64,000 nucleotides of DNA from Paraburkholderia sp. BL23I1N1 (GTDB lineage: Bacteria; Pseudomonadota; Gammaproteobacteria; Burkholderiales; Burkholderiaceae), in the NCBI RefSeq assembly GCF_003610295.1, contig NZ_RAPV01000001.1, positions 1,860,001-1,924,000 on the forward strand, written 5' to 3'. A program made the translations under genes and the position numbers. This document shows positions 7,030-53,775 of the stretch, piece after piece. Below the pieces are notes generated by a model. That model ran no database searches, was not told the DNA's origin, and worked only from the letters and a program-made list of their open reading frames with translations. How positions within the stretch are numbered: the stretch's first letter is position 1; every line of letters starts with the position of its first letter.

Positions 7030-7420
7030 GTTTTTTCGCTTTCCTGTTTTCTCGCGTTCTCATTTTCTGACTCGACTCCGCCGCGCTCGCGGCCTTCACC
7101 TTGCATCGAAACGTAGGCTGCGCGGTTTGTGATTCGCAGTTCGACGCTTTCTGCCATCGGGTCGTCCCACGCCTCAAGATAGCTTCACGTTAGCTTCGCG
7201 CTACGTTGAGCCGCGCCGCACGTCTTCTCTTCGAACTCCCTTGAGCATCCGATATACGGCGTGACGTTTAAGAACGTTTAAGACCGCTGTCAGGACTTTT
7301 ATCGCTTGATCCCACTAACGTGCTGATCAGTCGCGATGCCGCGTCGGTCCGGGGCCGGTGCGCCGCATCGTGTACGCGAAAAAATTCACTCATGTCGTCG
7401 TCAACGATAAGGAAGCCAAA
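7030..7420. other. Intergenic region with the hydrolase promoter
   Basis: No gene was found between the tRNA terminator and the hydrolase. The right half contains the TTTMAG repeat site (7267-7301). From about 7266 to 7380 it is roughly 70 percent identical to the region upstream of DoxX (8584-8702), so the two promoter regions are paralogous. Confidence 0.7.
7267..7301 (+). promoter_or_regulatory. TTTMAG direct-repeat operator A (hydrolase)
   Basis: Hexamers TTTAAG (7267), TTTAAG (7277) and TGTCAG (7288) are spaced 10 and 11 bp and followed by GACTTTTA. A CTAA-containing -10 candidate starts at 7315, 27 bp after the third hexamer start, so the repeats abut the -35 position as in PhoB-type activation. 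The same layout occurs at 8585 and 53740, and in part at 25093 and 29432. I infer a class II activator site. Confidence 0.7.
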
Positions 7421-8410
7421 ATGACCTCTAAAACCGAAAACGAAACACCTTCCGCGTCGCGTCGCAGCATGTTGATGGCAGGAGCTGGCGCGGTTGCGGC
7501 AGCGGTGATTCCTGCTGTTTCCAACGCCGCAAGCACTGCATCGGGCAACAAAACCGGCAATCATCTTGCACATACAGGAGCACGATCCATGAACTTCGTA
7601 ACGACCAGGGACGGCGCACAGATTTACTACAAGGATTGGGGCTCGGGCCGCCCAGTCGTGTTCTCGCATGGCTGGCCGCTCGACGCCGATGCGTGGGACG
7701 CGCAAATGCTGTTTCTGGTGCAGAAGGGCTATCGCGTGATCGCTCACGATCGCCGGGGACACGGCCGTTCGAGCCAAACCGCGCACGGTAACGACATGGA
7801 CACCTACGCGGACGATCTTGCTGCCGTCATCGACGCACTCGATCTCAAGGGCGCCACGCTCGTCGGCCACTCCACGGGGGGCGGGGAAATCTCCCACTAC
7901 GTCGGCCGTCATGGAACGAAACGAGTTGCCAGGATGGTCCTGATCGGCGCAGTGCCGCCGATCATGGTGAAGACCGAGGCCAATCCGACGGGGCTGCCCA
8001 TGTCGGTCTTCGACGGTATTCGCACCAACACCGCGAACAACCGGTCGCAGTTTTTCAAGGACCTCGCGGTGCCGTTCTACGGCTATAACCGGCCCAATGC
8101 AAAAGTCCAGCAAGGTGTGATCGACGAATTCTGGCGCGAAGGGATGATGGGCTCGGTGCTCGGTCAATACGAGTGCATCAAGCAATTCTCCGAGGTCGAC
8201 TACACGCCGGATCTCAAGAAGATCGATGTACCGACGCTGATCCTGCATGGCGATGACGATCAGATCGTGCCGTTGGATGACTCCGGGCGTAAGTCGGCGC
8301 AAATCATCAAGAACGCCACGCTCAAGGTTTACCCGGGCGCACCTCACGGCATGTGCACGACGGAAGCGGATCGCGTCAATGCCGATCTTCTGGCCTTCCT
8401 CGAGTCGTAA
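7421..8410 (+). CDS. Exported alpha/beta hydrolase, non-haem chloroperoxidase-like
   Basis: The 329-residue protein is an alpha/beta-hydrolase of the cofactor-free haloperoxidase/esterase group. The nucleophile lies in GHSTGG (Ser151), the acid is in HGDDDQIVP (about Asp280) and the base is His309 in GAPHGM. Residues 1-37 form a likely Tat signal (SRRSMLMAGAGAVAAAV, cleavage near SNA-A), unlike the usual cytosolic relatives. AAGGAAG precedes the chosen ATG. A second ATG at 7589, preceded by AGGAG, would give a 273-residue cytosolic form starting MNFVTTRDG, where most homologues begin. Natural substrate unknown; such enzymes act as esterases, perhydrolases or lactonases. Operator A lies upstream. 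Confidence 0.85.
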   Translation: MTSKTENETPSASRRSMLMAGAGAVAAAVIPAVSNAASTASGNKTGNHLAHTGARSMNFVTTRDGAQIYYKDWGSGRPVVFSHGWPLDADAWDAQMLFLVQKGYRVIAHDRRGHGRSSQTAHGNDMDTYADDLAAVIDALDLKGATLVGHSTGGGEISHYVGRHGTKRVARMVLIGAVPPIMVKTEANPTGLPMSVFDGIRTNTANNRSQFFKDLAVPFYGYNRPNAKVQQGVIDEFWREGMMGSVLGQYECIKQFSEVDYTPDLKKIDVPTLILHGDDDQIVPLDDSGRKSAQIIKNATLKVYPGAPHGMCTTEADRVNADLLAFLES

Positions 8411-8458
8411 GTTGGGGCGGGGCGAAGCCAGATAAGGTCAAGTCAGGCTGTGAAGATT

Positions 8459-53665: not shown

Positions 53666-53739
53666 CACGACCCGGCGGCGTTCGCCCGTACTCGACCAAT
53701 CCCCTGCGGCGTGCCCCCGCGTGCCCCCCGAGGCACGTC

Positions 53740-53775
53740 TTTCAGGTGTTTTCAGATCTGTTTCAGGACATTTTC
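53740..53775 (+). promoter_or_regulatory. TTTMAG direct-repeat operator H (efflux operon)
   Basis: TTTCAG at 53740, 53750 and 53761: three perfect copies spaced 10 and 11 bp, followed by GACATTTTC. This is the same geometry and trailing sequence as operators A and B with C in place of A at the fourth position. A -10 candidate CAATAG lies at 53785-53790. It sits 120-155 bp before the FUSC start. Confidence 0.75.

Follow-up and report, generated by a model that had tools for sequence, protein, structure and literature searches.

Within a 64-kb window of the Paraburkholderia sp. BL23I1N1 genome (the whole stretch of DNA that we analyzed), seven promoters share one layout, and their direct repeats are probably the activator boxes of sigma70-type promoters that are read by linked STAND regulators. 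The case for this reading, in which we place considerable confidence, comes from sequence comparison across genomes, and from the same comparison we infer that STAND proteins bind the boxes and that the genes behind them respond jointly. Linkage ties the boxes to the five local STAND proteins as a set and assigns no single box to a single one of them. A preliminary description of this DNA had proposed a shared promoter, one regulon, and a winged-helix reader; the comparison supports these proposals, with the correction that the reader would be a STAND ATPase and not an OmpR/PhoB response regulator.

Promoter layout

The layout common to these promoters is TTMAG-N5-TTMAG-N8-MAGGACTTT, followed by TANNNT 25 to 26 bp from the start of the third element. 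It was measured on 53 nonredundant sites of at least 20 bits, scored with a matrix that spans both repeats plus the third element and excludes the -10 element. Counted from the start of the third element, TANNNT was found at 25 bp in 31 of the 53 sites and at 26 bp in another 8; at a random position, the chance of a TANNNT at any of the four tested offsets is 1%. Given that the -10 stands at this fixed distance, we read the third element, NMAGGACTTT, as a final MAG half-site, 11 bp downstream of its predecessor, that overlaps an AGGACT -35; 17 to 18 bp separate this -35 from the -10. The third hexamer of the preliminary description therefore exists, in the refined form of a half-site fused with the -35. 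A TANNNT at fixed distance from the -35 element, as seen in 39 of the 53 sites, is the mark of a sigma70-type promoter. If transcription starts 7 bp after the -10, the box would span about -59 to -31.

In order to describe where such sites lie, we used 74 nonredundant sites of at least 20 bits from the window and its flanks, 80 STAND loci, 13 motif-found regions, and 20 held-out regions. A -10 at 25 to 26 bp accompanied 54 of these strong repeats (here, full sites) and was missing from the other 20. Full sites were outside open reading frames (ORFs) in 51 of 54 cases, in DNA of which ORFs make up 87% and which had been picked by STAND gene or motif, and 48 of the 54 had a same-strand ORF start within 350 bp. 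Among the 20 repeats without a -10, 2 were inside ORFs and 13 had a same-strand ORF start within 350 bp. These position counts rely on a simple gene caller that missed at least one gene (the HD gene at 9444-10106). The comparison of coding with intergenic rates had been set beforehand as a refutation test, and its outcome favored the sites. Downstream of the sites at 7267 and 8585, we also noticed ATGCCGC 12 to 30 bp past the -10. It was present in 5 of the 54 full sites, versus 24 of 1852 background windows, and we rejected it as a 5'-untranslated-region element of the layout because it is too rare.

The seven boxes and the genes behind them

All seven boxes in the window have a -10 at 25 or 26 bp. 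Five of the sites (7267, 8585, 25093, 29432, and 53740) had been reported before, and each was located where it had been placed, with repeats 10 bp apart; the other two, on the minus strand (20534 and 25035), were supplied by the combined matrix. A third hexamer had been claimed at three of the five and is present at all of them, with the weakest likeness to the consensus at 25093 and 29432. Similarly, the -10 claimed at four sites was confirmed at all four, and a previously unclaimed one accompanies the site at 53740.

Box 1 (7265..7321, plus strand; repeats at 7267 and 7277, the third element, and -10 TAACGT at 7316-7321; 39.2 bits) precedes the gene of an exported alpha/beta hydrolase (7358..8410, plus strand), assigned from Pfam and sequence, with an N-terminal export-like stretch recognized by eye. 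Box 2 (8583..8639, plus strand; repeats at 8585 and 8595, -10 TAATCT at 8634-8639; 38.1 bits) stands before genes for a DoxX family protein (8899..9408, plus strand; Pfam), an HD protein (9444..10106, plus strand; by search and translation), and regulator A. These three genes share a strand, with regulator A set off by a gap of 270 bp, and autoregulation of regulator A through box 2 is a possibility. A minus-strand gene at 9360-10187 was rejected, the real gene there being the plus-strand HD gene. Its product is 53% identical to the HD protein at 29602, and the earlier count of two HD proteins was right.

Box 3 (20482..20536, minus strand; site 20534, -10 TACGCT; 25.7 bits) is newly found and precedes three minus-strand ORFs for molybdenum dehydrogenase subunits and a cytochrome c (16325..20411; Pfam). 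Also new is box 4 (24982..25037, minus strand; site 25035, -10 TACACT; 21.6 bits), before the gene of a ferritin/Dps-like protein (24391..24942, minus strand; Pfam, with the NCBIfam Dps model below its cutoff). Box 5 (25091..25147, plus strand; -10 TAGAAT at 25142-25147; 27.7 bits) is followed by genes for a YcaC-like hydrolase of the isochorismatase family (25215..25919, plus strand; Pfam, with NCBIfam YcaC below its cutoff) and an Amidohydro_3 amidohydrolase (26017..27897, plus strand; Pfam).

Box 6 (29430..29485, plus strand; -10 TACGCT at 29480-29485; 29.5 bits) lies before the other HD gene, whose product is cyanamide-hydratase-like (29602..30243, plus strand; Pfam HD, with TIGR03401 below its cutoff), and genes for a DUF1427 protein, an exported VOC/glyoxalase-like protein, and an Alginate_exp porin (30247..33054, plus strand; Pfam and translation). 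The last of these, at 31399, had been called a porin, in agreement with its Pfam match. Promoters like box 6 precede genes of 213 to 237 amino acids in three other loci (L048, L052, and L057). Box 7 (53738..53793, plus strand; TTTCAG repeats, -10 TAGCTT at 53788-53793; 29.2 bits) precedes genes for a FUSC pump protein, an outer-membrane efflux protein, and an HlyD-type adaptor (53896..58767, plus strand; Pfam), and FUSC homologues in L050 and L053 are likewise preceded by sites.

The preliminary description also expected sites upstream of homologous genes elsewhere. They were found before 11 of 18 alpha/beta hydrolase genes, 9 of 12 HD genes, 4 of 7 DoxX genes, and 3 of 3 FUSC genes, in regions partly picked for the motif. 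From the list of targets, our guess is that the gene set serves a response to a toxic organic compound.

The boxes are clustered in the window

The bare repeat TTMAG-N5-TTMAG had 48 matches in the 9.12-Mb genome (26 forward and 22 reverse), and the reversed control had 19 and 21. Eight of the 48 fell within the 64 kb of the window, where 0.34 would be expected (binomial P = 1.7e-9), and the 40 outside it equaled the 40 of the control. A genome-wide regulon was therefore rejected, and by these counts the putative regulon is local to the gene cluster. Along similar lines, a matrix built from other species only found seven window sites that scored 16 bits or more, against an expectation of 0.48, derived from three sites in 400 kb of the organism's own DNA sampled at even steps. 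Three further bare repeats in the window, at 14313, 44346, and 59458 (14.2, 10.7, and 13.6 bits), are probably due to chance and were not counted as full promoters. Neither was a minus-strand repeat right of the window (L043:19612; 23.9 bits), which has no TANNNT at the usual distance; it precedes the gene of a PAS histidine kinase.

Winged-helix STAND regulators

Three regulators are encoded in the window. Regulator A (10377..13268, plus strand; 963 amino acids) combines an OmpR-type winged helix, an NB-ARC (STAND) ATPase, and a TPR-like solenoid, according to Pfam and the predicted fold. Regulator B (40485..42065, minus strand; 526 amino acids) has the winged helix and NB-ARC without the solenoid, and regulator C (50477..53665, plus strand; an ORF of 1062 amino acids whose true start may be further in) has the winged helix and a STAND ATPase, both by Pfam and alignment. 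Two more such proteins are encoded within 8 kb right of the window. The Trans_reg_C domain scored 63.7, 60.5, and 62.6 bits in the three window regulators (cutoff, 26.2), and NB-ARC exceeded the Pfam cutoff in A and B; regulator C had only a weak AAA_22 match. The model of regulator A (mean pLDDT, 83.7) comprises a winged helix together with an ATPase core and a solenoid of helices, and its best matches among solved structures were the STAND-TPR protein 6mfv and Apaf-1. In Pfam searches of all three, there was no match to the Response_reg receiver domain, to GerE (the LuxR-type helix-turn-helix), or, at an E value of 1e-3, to BTAD. By these tests, A to C join a STAND ATPase to an OmpR-type winged helix, the kind of domain expected for such repeats, and are not response regulators. 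Two very large proteins that combine protein kinase, AAA/STAND, GAF, and histidine kinase domains are also encoded in the region (34848-40475 in the window and L043:8240-13270 to its right), the second of which comes after the gene of an OmpR-type response regulator.

OmpR/PhoB-family regulators such as PmrA and QseB bind direct repeats with a 10- to 11-bp period just upstream of the -35. They belong to the same family of DNA-binding domains as the window regulators but carry a receiver domain, which the latter lack. MalT and other LAL proteins are STAND activators of the one-component type, in which helical repeats make up the sensor part. In MalT the DNA-binding domain is a C-terminal LuxR-type helix-turn-helix, whereas in the window regulators it is an N-terminal OmpR-type winged helix, with no GerE match. 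The build recalls that of immune and cell-death sensors in plants and animals: Apaf-1, the plant NLRs, and 6mfv have an NB-ARC core and a helical repeat sensor, as here, but the effector part of the window regulators is a DNA-binding winged helix.

The closest parallel in domain content is with AfsR and the large SARPs of Streptomyces, which likewise combine an OmpR-type winged helix, a NOD/STAND ATPase, and TPR repeats in one protein. AfsR, a SARP with NOD and TPR domains, is described as binding direct repeats that overlap the -35 as a side-by-side dimer, and the repeats of SARPs as lying 11 or 22 bp apart, with 8 bp between the final repeat and the -10 (PMC10936776). The window boxes also overlap the -35 region, and by sequence AfsR (8k60) matches positions 153-501 of the profile (E value, 6e-10). 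Unlike in the SARP arrangement, however, half-sites in the window follow one another at 10 and then 11 bp, and the final one, which merges with the -35, is about 21 bp away from the -10. Because the BTAD match is absent and the box lies further upstream, the window regulators are not SARPs by the tests of BTAD and repeat spacing; by analogy, they may nevertheless work like AfsR. Among the matches listed in the open-licence literature, there was no earlier description of the motif letters or of this type of regulator.

Box and STAND gene occur together across genomes

A search for the strict motif in 150 genomes of the family, in which loci were chosen independently of the regulator, gave 19 matches, 3 of them in the window; the control gave 1. 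The other 16 matches formed 13 regions (stretches of ca. 20 kb). A STAND regulator was present in all 10 regions with a correct -10, in none of the 3 without one (L194, L195, and L198, which are taken as chance), and in none of 35 control stretches. One of the 10, L196, shares its species record with training locus L096, which it overlaps. With the organism's own genome excluded, 9 genomes had both motif and STAND gene, 3 the motif only, 22 the STAND gene only, and 115 neither (Fisher P = 3.6e-5, with at most five STAND candidates scored per genome). The strict motif was thus absent from 22 of the 31 other STAND-positive genomes of the family.

The STAND regions of 20 of these 22 genomes (G042 and G083 were left out) served as a held-out set. 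In their 391 kb, 12 of the 20 regions accounted for 20 sites that reached 18 bits and had a -10; this becomes 19 sites in 11 of 19 regions once L248, which is from the genome of training locus L049, is removed; overlap with training was judged against the ten training loci only. No full site occurred in any of 35 controls, neither in 15 stretches from the same set of genomes (300 kb) nor in 400 kb of the organism's own genome, and the 300 kb of control DNA held one site of at least 18 bits without a -10. Five of the 12 positive regions belong to one genus (g12) with orthologous sites and are not independent cases. The eight regions lacking a full site speak against universal pairing, and 74 of 100 STAND loci scanned, most of them outside the Burkholderiaceae/Pseudomonas group of STAND proteins (see below), had no full site. 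Of 17 held-out target proteins listed, 10 were scanned: five alpha/beta hydrolases, one DUF1427 protein, one isochorismatase-family protein, one VOC-like protein, and two HD homologues without a Pfam match. Sites recur with like gene types in the held-out genomes. In genus g12 we also observed a direct repeat resembling TTMAG, after which comes a conserved ...A-A-C-G-A-TTAATTGGC stretch, without the usual -10 (L190:10374, L236:694, L245:7690, L247:12457, and L250:5842).

Other regulators of the window region were sought in the same 10 motif regions, with one query each. Relatives of the LysR protein encoded at 13285-14199 were found in 7 of them (and in 0 of 35 controls), AraC relatives in 5, and relatives of two further LysR proteins in 1 each. 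It is therefore conceivable that a co-located regulator, above all this LysR, reads the box and that the STAND genes are mere island companions, the more so as its relatives occur in 12 of 26 motif-positive and only 1 of 74 motif-negative STAND loci. We nonetheless consider this unlikely: the LysR relative is absent from L196, L199, and L200, all of which have full sites, and LysR boxes are interrupted inverted repeats, unlike the 10-bp direct repeats seen here. Since the STAND gene alone was constant among the regulators tested, it is favored over the LysR.

Still less probable is that the box is bound by a two-component response regulator of the OmpR family, of the PmrA/QseB kind. Such regulators agree in the type of DNA-binding domain and in how far apart their repeats lie, the PmrA/QseB-kind box resembles the reverse complement, CTKAA-N5-CTKAA, and a candidate with Response_reg and Trans_reg_C domains lies just right of the window (L043:7552-8232), adjoining the large STAND-kinase sensor. 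Its relatives were, however, found in 0 of the 10 motif regions and in 3 of 100 other STAND loci (one query at an E value of 1e-12 and half coverage, so that distant ones may be missed), and a global response regulator would give sites genome-wide, whereas the bare repeat is at control level outside the window. Relatives of NarL-type and TetR regulators were likewise found in 0 of the 10 regions.

The site follows the regulator

In a midpoint-rooted tree of 123 STAND proteins, read by eye, 32 of the 38 proteins in a Burkholderiaceae/Pseudomonas group came from a locus with a site, versus 3 of 85 elsewhere; labels were given per locus (a site counted if it reached 18 bits and had a -10, or if it reached 25 bits), and L190 to L202 had been picked by motif. 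The three positives outside the group are two proteins of one Acidisphaera locus and one Aquabacterium protein, the locus of the latter having a 35-bit repeat without TANNNT. Within Pseudomonas, three loci of the group have sites and five outside it have none at the same threshold. A paralogue in the organism's own genome (L044), which is inside the group, has no site nearby.

HD homologues that are 57 to 61% identical to the window's and unlinked to a STAND gene lacked a full site in all 28 loci scanned (L269 to L296), where the best score was 16.5 bits, with no -10; L269 is 21 kb from a STAND gene. The linked HD genes with sites (9 of 12 at 18 bits or more, 7 with a -10) come from regions largely picked by motif or STAND gene, and the two held-out HD genes, in L235 and L240, both have full sites. 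Because the unlinked homologues are without the site and most of the STAND-linked ones have it, the site, on the sequence evidence, goes with the regulator rather than with the target gene. The same absence from unlinked homologues, and the fact that promoters of unrelated genes have the box and a -10 at constant distance with differing spacer letters, make it very improbable that the likeness is chance or a remnant of copying with paralogous genes, without a common regulator, even though conservation of the gene set and orthology of some promoters would fit that reading.

A proposed mechanism

If STAND regulators do read the boxes, a signal, perhaps a toxic organic compound, would open the ATPase, and the opened protein would assemble with its OmpR-type winged helices placed head to tail on the 10- to 11-bp repeats. 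The winged helices so assembled would cover about -59 to -31 and recruit RNA polymerase to a -35 element of low strength. Joint production of the hydrolases, HD proteins, DoxX, dehydrogenase, Dps-like protein, porin, and FUSC pump would follow, as a detoxification or stress response.

Other half-sites and significance

A motif-free count of words put TTAAG at period 10 at the top of the list for the motif group (10 versus 0.06 expected). In intergenic DNA of STAND loci outside that group, it brought up TTCAC-N5-TTCAC in Rhizobacter (L109:1044, 6901, 7698, and 16665) and in another betaproteobacterium (L067:12764), GTTAG-N5-GTTAG at four places in three Sphingomonas loci (L091:3430; L099:1997 and 14817; L101:8729), and one repeat site in Bradyrhizobium in seven near-identical copies; some words of period 9 and 12 surfaced too. 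These small numbers hint at a 10-bp grammar common to subfamilies, with changed letters. We tentatively suggest that the proteobacterial winged-helix STAND proteins could make up a large class of activators that are NLR-like, act within their own cluster, and all read 5-bp half-sites repeated directly every 10 bp, the letters of the half-site being particular to each subfamily. If this is true, ligand-driven assembly would amount to an apoptosome-like oligomer turned into a promoter-reading array for detoxification islands.

For the winged-helix STAND group found in Burkholderiaceae and Pseudomonas, our results describe how operator and promoter are laid out and predict the regulator. With a known box, the target genes of each cluster become predictable, and inducing signals can be assayed. 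Such an assay would also be a direct test of how a switch like that of the NLRs and Apaf-1 drives bacterial transcription.
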